Positions 34,488 through 43,642 of a stretch of DNA of 44,856 nucleotides are shown piece by piece. A program made the position numbers and the translations under genes. The DNA is from Actinomycetota bacterium (GTDB lineage Bacteria > Actinomycetota > Actinomycetes > Streptosporangiales > Streptosporangiaceae): the NCBI GenBank assembly GCA_003168215.1, contig PMSW01000073.1:1-44856 (forward strand). The letters are read 5' to 3'. The notes beneath the pieces were generated by a model. The model was not told the DNA's origin and searched no databases. It worked only from the letters and a program-made list of their open reading frames with translations. The first letter of the stretch is position 1; each line of letters opens with the position of its first letter.

Positions 34488-35813
34488 TCATGCCGTTCGC
34501 TCGGCCGCGAAAGCAGCGCGAGCCCGCGCCCCGACCGCTTCCGCCAGCTCACCTGCGGCTGCCGCTTCCCGCGCGGCATCGGCGATGCTCTTGCGGCCCA
34601 TGCAGAATGCCCATGATTCGAAGATCACCGGGCGCGCCCTGGCCACCGCTGCCAGCCGCGACAGCTCCGCTGGCTCGAGGTTCACGTGGCGCCGGTACCC
34701 GGCGACGACGAGGTCGACCCGCCGCAGGTCCTTTGCTCCCTCGGCGAACAGCAAGAAGGCGAGCGGCCACAGCCGCGGCCCCCGGCCGGCGCCTGTCCAG
34801 TCGACTACTACAAGCCCACGGTCGGGCGATGCGATGACATTCGCGAGGACAAAGTCCGGATGGACCAGGGCCTGCGGCAGGCCCTGGCAGCTGTCAAGGG
34901 CTTCGAGTTCCGCCCTCATGGACTCGTAAGGGCGCCGCTCTCCGGCGGGAACGAGTACCTCGGCATCCGCCAGCAACCTGGCGGCCGCCGCGACCTCGTC
35001 GTGCGGATCGCCGTCCGCCAGATGGTGCCAGGCCCCGCCATCGCGGGCAACCGCGCCTGCCCCCTCGGGCAGCGCGTGCAGGCGGCCGAGCAGCTCACCA
35101 AGGTGGCGCAGCCCGCCGAGATCGCGGATCGCCGCTCTTCTCTCCGTCCGTGGAACAGCCGCGACGTGTTCGGTGACGAGCAGGCCCTGCCCGTCGAGGA
35201 CCGACACCGGCTCCGGTGTCGCGCATCGCTCTGCGGGAAAGTCGTGCTCGGCCAGGAACCGCAAGACCTCGGCATCGCCGGCCGCCGCCGCCACCGGCCG
35301 CACCGGAGGGAAAAGGCGAGCGACCCAGCTCGGGCCGTCGGGCCGGCCGACCAGGAAAACGCCGACATCAAGCTCGGATATCTGCGCGACCTGGATCCCG
35401 TACTGCGATTCCAGGTGCGGCTGCAGTCGCTGCGCGTCCGAGCGGCCAGGCAGCGGGGAGCCGAAGCGGATGAGGTTGCCGTCGGGGTCGACGTGCGAAC
35501 CTTCCCGCAACCGGTAGGCGGTACTTCCTACCGGGCGGGTGATCCCGCCGATTCCCGGGCGGCTCCACTCCGCGTACAAGGCGTCGGCATCCTCTACGTA
35601 GAGATAGGCCTCACTCGCGCTGGTCCCGGGATCGTGACCGGGCTTGGCGGCCAGGTGCAGTCCGATCCCGTCGCGATCAGCGAACCCGTACTCCCCGCCC
35701 CCGGCGTAGGCCCTGGTGACGAAGCCCAGCGACTCGTAATGCGCCAGGGCGCGGCGCAGGTCCCGCACGGGGAAGATCGGGCTGAAATGGGTGAGCCGGG
35801 CCGGCGGGCTCAT
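34488..35813 (-). CDS. Fusion of glyoxalase/bleomycin-resistance domain and aminoglycoside-phosphotransferase-like kinase
   Basis: A 441-residue two-domain protein. Residues about 8-120 are a VOC (glyoxalase/bleomycin-resistance) module: SPIFPVRDLRRALAHYESLGF, AYLYVEDADALYAEW and VDPDGNLIRFGSPL. Residues about 140-430 are an APH/choline-kinase fold: VLDGQGLLVTEHVAA in the hinge, the catalytic loop LVHPDFVLANVI (Asp320, Asn325) and VVVDWTGAGRGPR with the magnesium-binding Asp338. Each alone would suggest antibiotic resistance or small-molecule modification; the fusion suggests binding plus phosphorylation of one ligand. AGGAAGG 4 nt before the ATG at 35813 decides the start over the ATG at 35840. 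GTCAA half-sites lie upstream. Substrate unknown. Confidence 0.85.
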   Translation of the reverse strand: MSPPARLTHFSPIFPVRDLRRALAHYESLGFVTRAYAGGGEYGFADRDGIGLHLAAKPGHDPGTSASEAYLYVEDADALYAEWSRPGIGGITRPVGSTAYRLREGSHVDPDGNLIRFGSPLPGRSDAQRLQPHLESQYGIQVAQISELDVGVFLVGRPDGPSWVARLFPPVRPVAAAAGDAEVLRFLAEHDFPAERCATPEPVSVLDGQGLLVTEHVAAVPRTERRAAIRDLGGLRHLGELLGRLHALPEGAGAVARDGGAWHHLADGDPHDEVAAAARLLADAEVLVPAGERRPYESMRAELEALDSCQGLPQALVHPDFVLANVIASPDRGLVVVDWTGAGRGPRLWPLAFLLFAEGAKDLRRVDLVVAGYRRHVNLEPAELSRLAAVARARPVIFESWAFCMGRKSIADAAREAAAAGELAEAVGARARAAFAAERTA

Positions 35814-36082
35814 GGTCCTTCCTTCATCCTGCCTCGTCATCCGCGGGCTGGAGGTGGCATGCGAGGGAGGTTACCTCGGCTGAAGCTCGTAGTCAATATA
35901 GTTGACAGTCAAGACAGCGCACCGATGATTATCGAGGACGTCAGGACCCGCCGGCTAGATCAGAGTGCAATGCCCGTTGCCACGTCAGAGCTACTTGACC
36001 CATACTTGACCTGCGCCTTACCTAGTCGGTACGTTTGCCGCCCACTTATTTCTTATATTTCAGGCCGCTCCTGGAGGATCCG
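35814..36082. promoter_or_regulatory. AT-richer divergent control region with repeated half-sites
   Basis: This 269-base intergenic region is clearly AT-richer than its flanks. GTCAA-TATAG-TTGAC-A-GTCAA (35892-35912) gives two overlapping inverted repeats sharing one TTGAC half. At 35992-36011, TACTTGACC occurs twice with an 11-bp period. The second copy's TTGACC (36006-36011) is followed after 18 bases by TACGTT (36030-36035), a plausible promoter for the PH-like gene. Direct repeats at 11-bp period over a -35 are the arrangement bound by SARP/OmpR-type activators. Confidence 0.5.
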
Positions 36083-36451: not shown

Positions 36452-36502
36452 GGCCCCACGGGACCGTTGCGCAGGCGATCGTCGGGGTGGGAAGTTAAGC
36501 AT

Positions 36503-39469
36503 GTGCCGTGGCAGGCTCACTTCGTGAACGCGCACGCCGCCGCTGGTGCTCCTCGTTCCCGCCGAGGAGAGGAAGGGACTCGCGCGCACGGAGACCGCGT
36601 TCACCAGCTACTCGAACGTGACGGCGAGCTGCATCAAATCGAGCTTGCCTTGGCCGGTGCTGCACTCGGCCACGGAAGGCTCGTTGTTATCTATGGGACC
36701 GCGGGCATCGGGCTCTCCAGCCTGCTCGAGACGGCATTGCAGCTGGCCTCGTCGCGCAAGTTCGACATTTTCCGTGCTCGCGGAAGCGAATGGGAGCGCG
36801 GCTACGCATTCGGCGTGGCACGGCAGCTGCTGGAGACGCGCGTTGTCAAGCTGCAGGACGCTCAACTGGAGTCGTTGTTCGATGGAGCTGCGGCTGCTGC
36901 GCTTCCGGCCCTGGGGCTGGCCTCAGCGCAAGACGCCGTTCGCCGCAGCGACTTCGATCAGATTCACGGCCTGCACCTGGTCGTCTCGCGCCTAGCCGCG
37001 AACCGAGGCCTCGTCATCGCCGTCGATGATGTTCACTGGTGCGATCGCCCATCGCTCGACTTCCTGTGCTTTCTCGGGCACAGGGCCAGTCGGCTGCCGC
37101 TGGTCGTGGTGCTGTCGTGGCGTCGCGGGGAGCCAGCGGTGCGTGCCGGCCGACTGCAGGCCCTGGCGGGTGAGCGCGACACGATATTCCTTGCTCCGCA
37201 GCCGTTCAGTGCGGAGGCGGTGCGGAACATGATGGCGCAGGACCTGGACACGGATCTCGACGATGAGGTAGTGGACCTCGTGCGGACCCGGACGGGCGGT
37301 AACCCCTTCCTCGTTAGCGAACTCGTAGCTGCTCTTCGCTGGAGGCGTATAGCGCCAACGACAGCCGCCGCCGATACGATTGCCGCCCTGACGCCCGAAC
37401 GGACCCGCCGGGATGTCGCCGCCCGACTCGGCCGCCATCCGGAATCCGTGCGGCGACTGGCGTACGCGGTTGCCGTGCTCGGCGATGGGTGCTCGCTCGC
37501 GCAGGCCGCGCAGCTGGCCAGAGTCAGCCCCGAGAAGGCACCGCAGTTCGCGGACGCGCTGGTCCGCGCCGACTTCCTCCGACTCGACCAGACGCTGTCC
37601 TTTCTGCATCCGCTGGTGCGCGATGCGACATATGAGACGCTCAGCTCAGTCGAGCAGGCAAGCCTGCACTCCGCAGCCGCCGCGCTGATAGCCGGGACGG
37701 GAGAGGGTGCGGACGCCCGGCGGATTGCCGAGCATTTGCTTCATAGCGAACCGACCGGGGATCCGCGATTCGAACGAGTGCTGCGCGAAGCCGGGCTCTC
37801 GGCGATGCGCGAAGGCGCGCTGCCATTTGCGCACCGATGTTTGCAGCGCGCCCTCGAAGAACCCGGCGACGAGACGAGAGGCGAGAAGCTGGCGCAGCTG
37901 GGAGCGCTCAGCCTGCGCATTGGCGACCTTGGAGCTGCCGAGGAACAGCTGCGACAAGCATTGCCGCTTGCGAGATCGGAAGCAGACCGGCTCTCGACGG
38001 CAACCGCGTACGCGGAGGCAGTGGCCGCTGCCCGAGGTTGCGGGCCGGCCGTCCAGTTGCTGGACCAGGAACTCGACCGGTGCTCACGACGCGATTCCGG
38101 TTTCGGCCTCGGCCTGCAAGCCGCCATCGCGACCCTGCGGCTCTGCCACCACGTCGCGCAGCCTCAGCTCGCCACCGAACCGCTGGGCCGCGCTGGCGCC
38201 GGGACCACCGCGGAACTGGCGATGCTCGCTGCAAGAGCATCGCTCGCTGCGCTTCATGGGACTGCCAGTGCGCAGCAGGTTATCGAGGCCTGCAGCAGGG
38301 TGGTCGCCGATGGCCAGTGGGACGAGAAGGCCAGAAGGGGACCGGCGGCATGCTACTTCGCCTGCCGGGCAGCACTGCTCGCGGAGGGCATTGAGCTTGT
38401 GGAGGAAGCGCTTCCCGCCCAGAAGAACGAGCTCTCCGCGGAAACTGTCGCCGACCACGATCTCGCCGCTCTCGCAGTCCGCTGCCAGCTGCGCCTCTCG
38501 CGCGGCGATCTTTGGCACGCCGAGGCTGATGCAGCGGCCGTGACTGGCCTGATCAAGACGCTGCCGCCGACGTCGCTGCGGCGGCGGATGCGCGACGATG
38601 CCATGGTCGTTCGCGTCATCGTCGGGCTGCACCGGGGCAGCGCCGATGATGCCCGGCAGCGGCTTTCGGAGCTGACCGCTTGCGGCGGAAAGGAGCACCG
38701 CCACCCCGCGGTGCCGTCCCTGGTGATCATGCTCGGGCTGCTCGAAGGTCGCGTGCAGGAAGCTGTCAGTGACGGCGTCGGGGCCGGGGTCTGCGAGACG
38801 CCGGCCGGGCTTGCCGCACCGGGCGTGTCCTGGCGGCCGGTGCTTGCACTTGCCTACCAGAGCGCGGGCAAGCCCACGGAGGCGATGGCTCTCGCCACCA
38901 GGCACCTTGAGGCCGCACGGGCATGGGGTGCTCCGTCATATCTCGCGCGTGCCCTGCTGACCCAGGCGGCGATCTCATCGGGATCCTCCCGACGGGGACT
39001 CATCGAGCAGGCGCTCAGGCTGCTCGAAGGCAGACAGGCGGACCTGGAGCTCGCGCAGGCGCAGATAGACCTAGGCGCGGCCCTCCGGCGAGAGCGCCGG
39101 CGCAAGGAAGCGCAGAAGGAACTCACCAAGGGTGCCGACCTCGCCCGCCACTGCGGCGCTAGCGCACTGGTTGAACGCGCGCATTCAGAGCTTGTCGCGG
39201 CGGGCGCCCGGCCGCGCCGACGGGCATTCAGCGGGCTGGAGTCCCTGACGCCGAGCGAGCGGCGCGTCGCCGAACTTGCGGCAACCGAGATGACGACCCG
39301 GCAGATCGCGCACGCCTTGACGGTCAGCATGAAGACGGTCGCAGGCCAGCTCAGTGCCGTTTACCACAAGCTCGGCGTGCACGACCGCCAGGCGCTTACA
39401 GCCGCCCTGGCAGGTGCGGAGGACACCGGCTGGGGCGAGCCGGATGGCAGCGGGGAGGCGCCGTCGTGA
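36503..39469 (+). CDS. Large ATP-binding LuxR-family regulator (LAL) with degenerate P-loop
   Basis: A regulator of about 988 residues. After LLERDGELHQIELAL comes the AAA/NACHT-type ATPase region, whose Walker A reads GTAGIGLSSLLE (residues 65-76): the essential lysine of GxxGxGKS is leucine (codon CTC at 36713). Walker B is kept as GLVIAVDDVHWCD. A long helical TPR-like middle follows, then a C-terminal LuxR helix-turn-helix: SLTPSERRVAELAATEMTTRQIAHALTVSMKTVAGQLSAVYHKLGV. The frame can be read from TTG 36467; GTG 36503 has GGGAAG 8 nt upstream and is preferred. Its TGA overlaps the GTG of the next gene (GTGA), so it heads the peptide-maturation operon and probably controls it. Confidence 0.85.
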   Translation: MPWQAHFVNAHAAAGAPRSRRGEEGTRAHGDRVHQLLERDGELHQIELALAGAALGHGRLVVIYGTAGIGLSSLLETALQLASSRKFDIFRARGSEWERGYAFGVARQLLETRVVKLQDAQLESLFDGAAAAALPALGLASAQDAVRRSDFDQIHGLHLVVSRLAANRGLVIAVDDVHWCDRPSLDFLCFLGHRASRLPLVVVLSWRRGEPAVRAGRLQALAGERDTIFLAPQPFSAEAVRNMMAQDLDTDLDDEVVDLVRTRTGGNPFLVSELVAALRWRRIAPTTAAADTIAALTPERTRRDVAARLGRHPESVRRLAYAVAVLGDGCSLAQAAQLARVSPEKAPQFADALVRADFLRLDQTLSFLHPLVRDATYETLSSVEQASLHSAAAALIAGTGEGADARRIAEHLLHSEPTGDPRFERVLREAGLSAMREGALPFAHRCLQRALEEPGDETRGEKLAQLGALSLRIGDLGAAEEQLRQALPLARSEADRLSTATAYAEAVAAARGCGPAVQLLDQELDRCSRRDSGFGLGLQAAIATLRLCHHVAQPQLATEPLGRAGAGTTAELAMLAARASLAALHGTASAQQVIEACSRVVADGQWDEKARRGPAACYFACRAALLAEGIELVEEALPAQKNELSAETVADHDLAALAVRCQLRLSRGDLWHAEADAAAVTGLIKTLPPTSLRRRMRDDAMVVRVIVGLHRGSADDARQRLSELTACGGKEHRHPAVPSLVIMLGLLEGRVQEAVSDGVGAGVCETPAGLAAPGVSWRPVLALAYQSAGKPTEAMALATRHLEAARAWGAPSYLARALLTQAAISSGSSRRGLIEQALRLLEGRQADLELAQAQIDLGAALRRERRRKEAQKELTKGADLARHCGASALVERAHSELVAAGARPRRRAFSGLESLTPSERRVAELAATEMTTRQIAHALTVSMKTVAGQLSAVYHKLGVHDRQALTAALAGAEDTGWGEPDGSGEAPS

Positions 39470-40536
39470 GCAGCGCAGTGCCTGGGAGCTTCCAGGTCGA
39501 CCCAACGGAGCGCATCCGCCTGATGCTCAGCGCGACGATCGTCACCGTCGGGGGGCGGGACTGGACCGGGCGCGACCTGGTCACCGCGGGCGCGCTCTCC
39601 GGGCGATGGCACACGCTGGAGGCGGATCTGGCCCGCGGCCTCGCATCCCTGGAAGACTGGACACCGCCGCGCGAGCCAGTCAAGGCGGCACTGCGGGATT
39701 TCCGTTACGCCCGGCGGCTCATCAGCGCCGACGAGTTCTCGGACTGGCTGCGCCAGCGCGGATTGACCCAGGCGGAACTGCTCGGGGCGATCAAGCGCCG
39801 GTTGGCACACCAGCACGACAGCGGGACCCGAGCCGGCGACCATGCCGGCCAGCGTCCTGGGGCTCTCGCGGCGCTTCCCGCCGAGGCGGTCTACACGAGG
39901 GCACTGCTCGACTGCGCCGAGTGGCTGATCGACCGGATCCTCTGCCTCGCGGATGGATCAACTCAGCAGGTCGAGCCAGCCGAGCTGGAGCTCCTGCTCG
40001 AACGCGAGCGCGAGCTGATGGCATTCGAGGCCATCGCCGAGACCGACGGCGACCGCCGAACGCGCGCCGAGCTCTTGCTAGCGGCGAGCGCTGCGTACGA
40101 CGCGCGAGTCGCAGCCGTGTGCTCGGCAAAGGCGATCTCGAAGCTGCTGCAGCATCACGCACTCGACTGGCTGCGCTTCGAGCTCATCGGCTTCGCCTGC
40201 CCGGCGGCCGGCGCCGCGGCCGAGGTAGCGGCATTGTTGCGCGAGGGGACGCCCCCTGAACTGATTGCCGAGGTTTCCGGTGTGCCAGCCGAGCAGCTAC
40301 GCCTTTACCTCGAAGAAGCGCCGACGGCCATTCAGGGATGGCTGGGCGGCGCCGTGCCGGGCGCGGTGATCGGTCCGGTCGTGGATCAGGACACGCATCG
40401 CACGTGGCTCGTGCGAACTCGTCAATCCCCCGATTCGGAAGATCCCTCGATCGCGGAAAGAGCGCGCGCACAGGTCGTTGAGGAGGACATGCGCAGGCGA
40501 AGAGCAGGCAAGGTGAAGTGGCATGAGCGTCATTGA
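39466..40536 (+). CDS. Parvulin/SurA-like putative peptide-maturation protein
   Basis: A 356-residue soluble protein. The N-terminal half is helical (RDFRYARRLISADEFSDWL, RQRGLTQAELLGAIKRRL) and resembles SurA-type chaperone N-domains. The C-terminal part (GAVPGAVIGPVVDQDTHRTWLV, then ERARAQVVEEDMRRRRAGKVKW) has the ending of parvulin-type prolyl isomerase domains (GxVxGPVxxxxGxxLxxV), though I cannot identify catalytic residues. Similar proteins accompany peptide-exporting ABC transporters in ribosomal-peptide clusters, from memory. The GTG start overlaps the regulator's stop (GTGA) with GGGGAGG 8 nt upstream, and its own stop overlaps the transporter start by 14 nt. Likely acts on or holds a precursor peptide or the exporter. 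Confidence in the fold is moderate. Confidence 0.6.
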   Translation: MSSAVPGSFQVDPTERIRLMLSATIVTVGGRDWTGRDLVTAGALSGRWHTLEADLARGLASLEDWTPPREPVKAALRDFRYARRLISADEFSDWLRQRGLTQAELLGAIKRRLAHQHDSGTRAGDHAGQRPGALAALPAEAVYTRALLDCAEWLIDRILCLADGSTQQVEPAELELLLERERELMAFEAIAETDGDRRTRAELLLAASAAYDARVAAVCSAKAISKLLQHHALDWLRFELIGFACPAAGAAAEVAALLREGTPPELIAEVSGVPAEQLRLYLEEAPTAIQGWLGGAVPGAVIGPVVDQDTHRTWLVRTRQSPDSEDPSIAERARAQVVEEDMRRRRAGKVKWHERH

Positions 40537-43500
40537 ACAGTCCCAGCCGGAGAGACTCGAGGCCGTGCGCGAGCTTCCCATCATGGGAATGCTCGCCGCC
40601 TCGCTTCGCGAGCTTGTGATCGGCAGCTTCGAGGTTCGCTCGTACGGGTTCGGCGAGTACCTGGTGATCGAGGGTGAAGAGGCCGATGCCTTCTACGTGC
40701 TGCTGGAGGGCATGACGCGAGTCGTCACGACTGGATCGGACGGCAGCGAGAGAACGCTCAGCGTCATGCGCGCTGGCGAAAGCTTCGGAGAGCGGGCATT
40801 CCTCGAAAGCACGCCACGCACCGCGTCGGTGCGCGCGTCTTGCCCGGTGACCGCAGCCCGGCTCGATCGTTCCGTGTTCGGGTCGCTTCTGCACCTGCAC
40901 CCGCAGGTCGCGGAGGTGTTCGCGCAACAGGGACGCGCTCGGCGGCTGCAGGGCTTCCTGCGCCAGCACCCAGCCTTTGCCACGCTGGACCCCGACGCGG
41001 TGGGGCTGCTGCTCCGCAAGGCTCGGGAAGTGCACCTGGCCGCCGGACAGCAGTACGTCGCCGAAGGCGATCCCGCGTACAGCTGGTGGGTGGTCGAGGC
41101 GGGCCGGCTCACGGTGTTCACTTCAGAGCCCGCGCGGCGCGATCTGCGCTACCTGCGAACGGGCGACATCTTCGGGGAGGTTGCCCTGCTCACAGGGAGC
41201 GGGCGGACAGCGAGCATCGAGGCCACCACTGACGTGACCCTGCTCGAGTTCCCCAAGGAGACGTTCGACGTCCTGCTCGACAACCCGAGGTTCCGCGCCC
41301 GGATCGACGAGCGACTGGCCATGTACGCCTATGCGGCGCGGGCGCCGGTCGACCTCCCCGAGGCCGGGGGCGAGGCTGAGCCTGCAGCGGCCGCCGCGGC
41401 CGCCGCCCCCAGCGACCGGGAACTCCGTGAGCGCGAGATGACCAGGGGCGTGGAACTGGCCGAGAACCCGGTCGAAGGGCAGCCCTGGACGCCGCCGCGG
41501 CGCTTTCCCTGGCTACGGCAGATCGACGAGGCCGATTGCGGGGCGGCGAGTGTTGCCATGCTCTGCCGGGCTTTCGGCCACCGTGTCTCACTGACGTTCA
41601 TCCGCAGTGCCGTCGGGACGAGCGAGCAGGGAACGACGCTGCGAGGCATTCAGCGCGGCGGCGAGAAGGTCGGGCTCGAAGTCAAGGCGCTGAAATCGTC
41701 AGTGAGCCGCCTGGCAGCTCTGCCGCTCCCGGCGATCATCCACTGGGACGGGAACCACTGGATCGTGCTCTACCGCGTGGAGCGCGACCGCGTACGCGTC
41801 GCCGACCCCGGACGGGGACTGCGAACGATCCCGATGCCGGAGCTCGAGGAGAAATGGTCGGGGTACGTGGCCACGGCCCGGCCCACCCCCCGGCTCGCCG
41901 AGGCACCGCGCGAGAAGCTCCAGGTGGCGTGGCTGCTGCCGTTCCTTGCCCCGCAGCGCAAGAGGATCGTGATCGCGATCGTGATGGCGCTCGTCGCCGC
42001 CGGGGCAGAGATGGTCCCTCCGATCCTGAGCAACAACGTCATCAAAGCCATCCAAACCCACTTGGGCGCAGGGCGCGTGAACGAGCTGATCGCGATCATG
42101 TTCGCCTTCTTGCTGCTGTCGCTGGCCGCTTCACTGCTGCAGCGGCGCGTGCTCGCGCGCGCGTCCGTCGATCTCGACAGCGCGTCACTGGACTTCGTCA
42201 CCGGCCGGTTGCTTGGACTGCCACTTGCGTACTTCGAGTCGCGGCGCACCGGGGACATCGAACGGCGCCTCAACGGGCTCCGCCAGCTACGTCAGCTGCT
42301 CATCCAGAACGTCCCCGGGGCACTGGCGGGTGCTGTCCAGCTGATGGTCACGCTGGCGATCATGTTCTCGTACTCATGGGTGATCGGGCTGGCCTTCCTC
42401 GGCACGGCACCGGCATATGCGGCGCTGATGCGGATGTCCGCCAACCGGCTCAAGCCCACCTTCGACAGCCTCGAGGAGGCATACGGGCGACACGCATCCA
42501 AGCAGATCGATGCAATCAAGGGCATCGAGGCGGTCAAGACCGCCGGGGCGGAGCCCGGCATCCAGCATCGCATTCTGGAGGAGTTCACCCGGCTGGCCGA
42601 CAAGGTCTTCAAGAGCGACTTCGTGCTCATGTCCTACGACGCGGCGGTACAGCTCACCGGCTTCGCGATCTTCGTCGTGTTCCTCTGGGTAGCGGCACTG
42701 CTCGCCATCTCCGGGACCCTGAGCCTGGGGCAGGTCGTCGCGGTCGATTCACTCGTGTTGCTGGCAAACGGGCCGATCTTCGCGCTACTGAGCATGTGGG
42801 ACCAGATGCAGATCGCCACGGTGCTTCTCCGCAGGCTGCAAGACGTCCTCGAGCAGGACGCCGAGCAGTCAGACCCCGCCACGCGCCTGCTGCCCGTCAG
42901 GTCGCTGGGAGGCCGGCTTGCTCTCGAACGCGTCGGCTTGTGCTATGGCGATGCGCCGAATCGGCCGGTGCTCGACGGCGTCAGCTTTGAGCTCGAGCCG
43001 GGAATGTCGCTTGGCCTCGTCGGCCGGTCGGGCTCTGGCAAGTCGTCGCTGCTCCGCTGCCTCGCCGGACTGCTGATGCCAACATCTGGCCGGATCCTCT
43101 ACGACGGGGTGGACCTGCGGGAGCTGCGCTGGAGCGATCTGCGCCGGCGGATCGGGTATGTACTCCAAGAGCCCTATCTGTTCGACGACTCGATCGCCTT
43201 CAACATCGCCCTCGGGGAGACCAAACCGGACTGGGACAAGATCTATCGTGCCGCGGAGATCGCCGACGCGGCGGAGTTCATTCAGACCTTGCCGCTCGGC
43301 TATATGACCAAGGTCGGTGACAGCGGGCTACGGCTGTCCGGCGGCCAGGCACAGCGCGTGGCGATCGCCCGTGCCCTGTACCACGAGCCGCCGGTCGTCT
43401 TGTTCGACGAGGCGACGAGCGCCCTGGATACCGAGTCGGAGCGAACGGTTAAGGAGAACCTCGATCGCGTGATGGCTGACCGGACCACGGTGATCGTCGC

Positions 43501-43642
43501 ACACCGCCTGAGCACGGTCCGTGCCGCCGACGCGATCGGCGTGCTCGATCATGGCCAGCTCGTCGAGTGGGGCAGCCATGAGGAGCTGATGGCTCGCGAG
43601 GGACTCTACTTCCACCTGAACATGGTCCAGGTGGAGGCATGA
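40523..43642 (+). CDS. Peptidase-containing ABC exporter with two cyclic-nucleotide-binding domains
   Basis: A 1039-residue five-module protein. Two cNMP-binding domains come first (about 20-135, GEDIFGE-like motif FGERAFLESTPRTASVRA; about 150-275, FGEVALLTGSGRTASIEA); both keep the phosphate-cassette FGE...RTA. After an Ala-rich linker comes a C39 peptidase with Cys339 (IDEADCGAASVAML), His412 (DGNHWIVLY) and Asp428 (VADPGRG), which cleaves leader peptides, usually after double glycine. Then a six-helix ABC membrane domain (about 460-740) and an ATPase with Walker A GRSGSGKSS (Lys840), signature LSGGQAQR and VVLFDEATSALD. It processes and exports a peptide; the front domains suggest gating by a cyclic nucleotide or similar ligand. 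AAGGTGA lies 8 nt before the ATG. Confidence 0.93.
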   Translation: MSVIEQSQPERLEAVRELPIMGMLAASLRELVIGSFEVRSYGFGEYLVIEGEEADAFYVLLEGMTRVVTTGSDGSERTLSVMRAGESFGERAFLESTPRTASVRASCPVTAARLDRSVFGSLLHLHPQVAEVFAQQGRARRLQGFLRQHPAFATLDPDAVGLLLRKAREVHLAAGQQYVAEGDPAYSWWVVEAGRLTVFTSEPARRDLRYLRTGDIFGEVALLTGSGRTASIEATTDVTLLEFPKETFDVLLDNPRFRARIDERLAMYAYAARAPVDLPEAGGEAEPAAAAAAAAPSDRELREREMTRGVELAENPVEGQPWTPPRRFPWLRQIDEADCGAASVAMLCRAFGHRVSLTFIRSAVGTSEQGTTLRGIQRGGEKVGLEVKALKSSVSRLAALPLPAIIHWDGNHWIVLYRVERDRVRVADPGRGLRTIPMPELEEKWSGYVATARPTPRLAEAPREKLQVAWLLPFLAPQRKRIVIAIVMALVAAGAEMVPPILSNNVIKAIQTHLGAGRVNELIAIMFAFLLLSLAASLLQRRVLARASVDLDSASLDFVTGRLLGLPLAYFESRRTGDIERRLNGLRQLRQLLIQNVPGALAGAVQLMVTLAIMFSYSWVIGLAFLGTAPAYAALMRMSANRLKPTFDSLEEAYGRHASKQIDAIKGIEAVKTAGAEPGIQHRILEEFTRLADKVFKSDFVLMSYDAAVQLTGFAIFVVFLWVAALLAISGTLSLGQVVAVDSLVLLANGPIFALLSMWDQMQIATVLLRRLQDVLEQDAEQSDPATRLLPVRSLGGRLALERVGLCYGDAPNRPVLDGVSFELEPGMSLGLVGRSGSGKSSLLRCLAGLLMPTSGRILYDGVDLRELRWSDLRRRIGYVLQEPYLFDDSIAFNIALGETKPDWDKIYRAAEIADAAEFIQTLPLGYMTKVGDSGLRLSGGQAQRVAIARALYHEPPVVLFDEATSALDTESERTVKENLDRVMADRTTVIVAHRLSTVRAADAIGVLDHGQLVEWGSHEELMAREGLYFHLNMVQVEA

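Follow-up and report, generated by a model that had tools for sequence, protein, structure and literature searches.

Among the established mechanisms of producer organisms are the binding proteins BlmA, ZbmA and TlmA, which act by sequestration, and BlmB, which acts by acetylation (PMC6283892). Here we describe a protein in which a VOC domain related to such sequestering proteins is followed by an APH-type kinase domain. It is encoded by a soil-type actinobacterium in the window, i.e. the whole stretch of 44,856 nucleotides analysed. Both domains are intact and are genuinely fused in one polypeptide; the fusion is rare but conserved in two other genomes. Two known domain families are combined in a new architecture, and the function can be proposed only in outline. 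A paper describing such a VOC-APH fusion was not found in the open-access library searched, which is a weak negative result. The features of the locus are as follows.

34488..35813, minus strand: VOC-APH fusion gene, 441 aa plus stop (ribosome-binding site, homologues L004 and L019, dN/dS)
35454..35792, minus strand: predicted VOC (Glyoxalase/BRP-like) domain, residues ~8-120 (PF00903, AF2, Foldseek, 1jie profile)
34506..35438, minus strand: predicted APH-type kinase domain, residues ~126-436 (PF01636, AF2, Foldseek)
34839..34862, minus strand: HPDFVLAN, predicted catalytic loop, residues 318-325, with Asp320 as putative catalytic and Asn325 as putative metal residue (sequence, YihE alignment)
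34785..34802, minus strand: DWTGAG, residues 338-343, with Asp338 as putative metal ligand (sequence, YihE alignment)
35892..35906, no strand assigned: GTCAA-N5-TTGAC palindrome, putative operator (one match in the window, 0.01 expected by chance)

The frame contains no internal stop, and the plus-strand reading of the same interval is interrupted by a stop. A good ribosome-binding site, AAGGAAGGACC, lies in front of the ATG at 35813; a second possible start is the ATG at 35840. The GC content at codon positions 1, 2 and 3 is 0.78, 0.53 and 0.81, respectively, like that of the neighbouring genes. Judged by frame, ribosome-binding site, codon composition and homologues, this is a real gene. The original prediction had the coordinates right, the gene being on the minus strand, and the three motifs that it named are all present in the translation: VDPDGN at residues 108-113 and the two kinase motifs listed above. 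Pfam detected only the APH and Glyoxalase domains in the protein and no acetyltransferase (GNAT) domain.

Full-length fused homologues were found at L004, in genome G014 of the same family as the window (61-62% identity), and at L019, in a MAG deposited as Acidimicrobiaceae (72% identity). Both have the domain order and junction of the window protein and a linker of about equal length. The dN/dS values (NG86), calculated for each half separately, were about 0.2 between the window and L019 and about 0.2-0.3 between the window and L004; by these values both halves are under purifying selection. The kinase domains of the three fusions group in one clade (100/98), and their VOC domains fall into one clade with two VOC domains joined to MarR (99/83). 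In the window genome (G000) the fusion occurs in a single copy. It was present in 2 of 343 genomes of the family, namely the window genome and G014. Sampling of the class (395 genomes) and of the phylum (396 genomes) yielded none. A pattern-based scan of GTDB returned one fused locus, L019, and otherwise VOC-only loci in Mycobacterium, Nocardia, Microbispora and others. As a guide to the taxonomy of L019, a thiolase of this locus was compared with 60 relatives of the window; it matched none of them at E ≤ 1e-120, a weak negative without a positive control. Spread of the fusion on plasmids was set aside, because the matches in PLSDB were VOC-only and included no fusion.

An assembly chimera or a frameshift might also have joined two adjacent genes. 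The assembly is indeed fragmented (176 contigs, 74.6% complete), and the same genome has the VOC domain as a protein of its own (L003) and, separately, a gene resembling the kinase (L002). However, these separate copies are just 54% and 40% identical, respectively, to the corresponding halves, and the same fusion, with linkers of similar length, occurs in two independent assemblies. Since the fusion is found in three different assemblies, it is not an assembly chimera; L004 and L019 rule out an artefact with near certainty. The original claim of a VOC domain fused to an APH-type kinase is thereby borne out, and the case considered with it, that homologues always occur as two separate genes, fails.

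In the VOC half, residues 8-117 matched PF00903 (Glyoxalase) with 20.0 bits, narrowly below the cut-off of 20.6, while the relatives L004 (30.0 bits) and L003 (33.2 bits) passed it. An AF2 model of this half, calculated from a 33-sequence alignment, had a mean pLDDT of 95, and its best structural matches in Foldseek were the bleomycin-resistance proteins of Tn5 and S. hindustanus, ZbmA and BLMA (TM about 0.75-0.8). Bleomycin N-acetyltransferase (2zw4, 2zw6) was also returned. When the VOC profile was compared with the PDB, the first nine matches were bleomycin- or zorbamycin-binding proteins (E = 1e-11 to 1e-9), 1jie matching at E = 1e-11. The profile scores of the homologues and the paired beta-alpha-beta-beta-beta fold of the model place the domain in the VOC/Glyoxalase superfamily, and by profile and predicted fold its nearest solved relatives are bleomycin-binding proteins. 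The curated NCBIfam cut-offs for Ble proteins were widely missed: ble_MBL gave 23 bits against 250, BLMT 20.6 against 210 and ZbmA 16 against 280, the Ble models as a whole giving 16-23 bits against cut-offs of 140-280. We therefore do not class the VOC half as a Ble protein. Two residues, His53 and Glu104, do not vary within the subfamily. The columns presumed from general knowledge to hold the metal ligands of Glo1 (glyoxalase I) are not conserved in the alignment: they vary in strand 1 and before V73, and in the last strand Arg116 replaces Glu. The original prediction had read VDPDGN as a sign that this half is active; the motif is a structural turn common in the VOC fold and is no evidence of activity, and the presumed metal-ligand positions are unconserved.

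VOC relatives occur with other partners as well. A MarR domain is joined in frame to a VOC domain of the fusion's clade at L017 (G011; frame 1534-2397) and L062 (G051; frame 1516-2421). These VOC domains are 65-70% identical to that of the window, L062 being the closer at 70%, and their ligand could reveal what the window fusion binds. Among more distant VOC relatives, L091 has an SRPBCC domain as its partner and L085 an ankyrin domain. Because VOC relatives are found with kinase, MarR, SRPBCC and ankyrin domains, the VOC module has been joined to several partners. In some genomes of the family, VOC copies are identical to those of Microbispora and Sphaerisporangium, which makes Streptosporangiaceae its most likely identity. 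As for the kinase, the closest one without a VOC domain is L005 in G011 (56% identity), whose frame (L005:1366-3486) continues through a Pro/Ala/Arg-rich repeat linker into a leucine carboxyl methyltransferase domain. A further kinase, L104:1408-2967, is a 520-aa frame with intact catalytic residues and about 210 N-terminal residues without a Pfam match.

The kinase half matched PF01636 (APH) over residues 152-366 with 64 bits against a cut-off of 23.2. In the AF2 model of the full-length protein, the pLDDT of the kinase was mostly 85-97 and the VOC half was poorly predicted; this model therefore gives no information on an interface or a common pocket. A mixed VOC plus kinase alignment (A2) placed kinase-only rows on the VOC half and was left out of the modelling. 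In the alignment with E. coli YihE, HPDFVLAN falls on HGDCHAGN and DW on VDLD (VDLDDA); HPDxxxxN and DW are kept in all fused members. By its score, its catalytic loop and metal Asp and its predicted protein-kinase-like fold, the domain is best assigned to the APH phosphotransferase family (PF01636). Both halves are complete, as originally proposed, and the active-site residues of the two kinase motifs are in place. Foldseek matched this half at similar strength and low identity to the amicoumacin kinase AmiN, YihE, choline kinase, MphH and homoserine kinase, with E values of 1e-10 to 1e-7 against APH enzymes; among the matches listed, homoserine kinase had the highest target TM-score (0.70). 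In the profile search of the PDB, E. coli YihE/SrkA was the best match, followed by TvaE and choline/ethanolamine kinases. Since metabolic and antibiotic kinases match similarly, the fold does not reveal which substrate is used. The best resistance-kinase model of NCBIfam, APH_3p (APH(3')), gave 11.9 bits against a cut-off of 205, and by NCBIfam scores no known resistance family claims the fusion protein.

A kinase-only sister clade of the APH fold (L002, L006, L007, L063-L067, L069 and L087-L089) has Asn in place of both catalytic Asp residues (HGNLLHAPDH and INWKASG). Its N-terminus resembles MTKDASFKKVVRRHAEETGQRYTEAL, and it was found in the window's family and three others; the copy in the window's own genome is L002:1390-2460. 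This HGN/INW clade appears, from its residues, to consist of conserved pseudokinases. A 5' leader of about 150 nt, strongly conserved in sequence, precedes the pseudokinase gene at L002:1238-1389 and at 12 other loci (alignment A4; mean column identity 81%), and in a sample of the class the core pattern of the leader was found only at this gene. The leader had no Rfam match in any of the five loci that were searched. In the consensus structure that can be drawn, five pairs show double changes. Single leader sequences were not clearly more stable than shuffled ones (z -1.6 and -0.6), and therefore a riboswitch is not claimed. At L106:629-1679 a broken pseudokinase copy, its frame interrupted, has kept the leader core.

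It had been suggested that GTCAA half-sites upstream of the fusion gene indicate regulation. The sites do exist: besides the palindrome, which is unlikely to arise by chance, there is one half-site next to it and there are two at 35995 and 36006. However, GTCAA is over-represented across the window (59 observed, 38 expected), neither L004 nor L019 has the palindrome upstream, and one half-site, read on the gene strand, begins TTGACT-17 nt-TAACCT and could be the -35 hexamer of a promoter. A scan for consensus promoters returned promoter-like sites on the opposite strand only. Regulation through GTCAA is therefore a local possibility, putative and confined to the window locus. The neighbouring genes encode a mycothiol-S-transferase/DinB protein, an epimerase, a LuxR-type ATPase regulator (36467-39469) and, downstream of the latter, a 1039-aa protein (40523-43642) with cyclic-nucleotide-binding, C39 peptidase and ABC exporter domains; this last locus looks like a peptide or bacteriocin-type exporter. 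None of these neighbours is shared with L004 or L019, and no biosynthetic cluster was seen around the three fusions. An explanation from operon or cluster context was dropped because the neighbours differ, and anti-phage defence was dropped because PADLOC gave no match. Rfam had no match in the window.

A BRP-type binding domain placed before a complete APH kinase suggests that a small molecule is bound and phosphorylated. The N-terminal VOC domain, with its bleomycin-binding-protein fold, would probably dimerise and would bind an organic ligand without metal catalysis. The APH-type domain would use the gamma-phosphate of a nucleotide triphosphate to phosphorylate a small molecule at a hydroxyl, with Asp320 acting as the base and Mg2+ bound by Asn325 and Asp338. 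The VOC part may bind that molecule itself or position it for the kinase, so that sequestration and inactivation would be combined. We infer kinase activity, ligand binding and cooperation between the domains from these features; the ligand-binding role of the VOC half is favoured because its sister domains are fused to MarR repressors. We therefore tentatively prefer, at somewhat less than even probability, a kinase of small molecules whose BRP-type domain captures the ligand, capture and modification taking place in one chain; bleomycin N-acetyltransferase is a precedent for joining a modifying enzyme to a BLMA-like domain. That the substrate is an antibiotic or another toxic natural product is a guess, and a role in resistance is plausible. 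The original prediction of a resistance enzyme with a new substrate went further than the data allow: the Ble and APH scores in NCBIfam are far below the cut-offs, and the kinase profile also matches metabolic kinases. A more specific form, in which the kinase phosphorylates the drug-like molecule held by its bleomycin-binding-type domain, possibly a glycopeptide-type DNA-damaging product for which no kinase is known, is unlikely.

Nearly as likely as the reading preferred above is that the protein is a metabolic or stress-response kinase of small molecules (or of proteins), in which the VOC domain only dimerises or senses a cell metabolite and no drug is involved. The ranking of YihE/SrkA and the choline/ethanolamine kinases in the profile search and the TM-score of homoserine kinase agree with this, and a generic sensor module would fit the pairing of closely related VOC domains with MarR and of more distant ones with SRPBCC or ankyrin; the very patchy distribution within the family, however, is unlike that of a housekeeping enzyme, and the VOC half has its closest relatives among drug-sequestering proteins. 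VOC folds often catalyse, and the invariant His53 and Glu104 would fit a two-step catabolic or biosynthetic enzyme whose VOC half acts as an isomerase, lyase or dioxygenase and whose kinase acts on the product. We consider this improbable, since the presumed Glo1-type ligand positions, Arg116 among them, are not conserved and the nearest relatives of the VOC domain are non-catalytic binders. Finally, the kinase might be decaying or catalytically dead and retained for binding only, as is conceivable from its large sister clade (including L086-L089), in which the catalytic Asp is replaced by Asn and the metal position is occupied by Asn or Gly. Both Asp residues are nevertheless kept in the window, L004, L019, L005 and L104, and the low dN/dS also speaks against decay. 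Because the sister clade lost both residues and the fused kinase keeps HPDxxxxN and DW, their retention looks selected, and a dead kinase is very unlikely.

Compared with known systems, the kinase half has the Pfam APH domain, catalytic loop, metal site and fold in common with AmiN, MphH, SrkA/YihE and homoserine kinase, but it is 12-22% identical to them and falls into no clear substrate group; to our knowledge, none of these enzymes has an N-terminal VOC domain. The VOC half resembles BLMA, Shble, BLMT and ZbmA in fold and profile and probably also in its lack of conserved metal-ligand positions. Those proteins, however, are free-standing domains, to which the window domain is about 25% identical. 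The MarR-VOC proteins L017 and L062 belong to the VOC clade of the window protein, but their partner is a DNA-binding domain and not a kinase. If the two domains of the window protein do not act on one molecule, they still show that one small ligand-binding VOC module is moved between kinases and MarR repressors among actinobacteria of the Streptosporangiaceae type. If they do, the VOC domain could give a hint at the class of substrate on which an orphan APH kinase acts, and the protein would both sequester and phosphorylate its ligand, as a counterpart of the acetylating bleomycin N-acetyltransferase BlmB/BAT. BAT is an acetyltransferase with its VOC-like part elsewhere in the chain. Like the window protein, it unites a modifying enzyme and a BLMA-like VOC domain in one chain; the window protein differs in having a kinase instead of the acetyltransferase and its VOC domain at the N-terminus.
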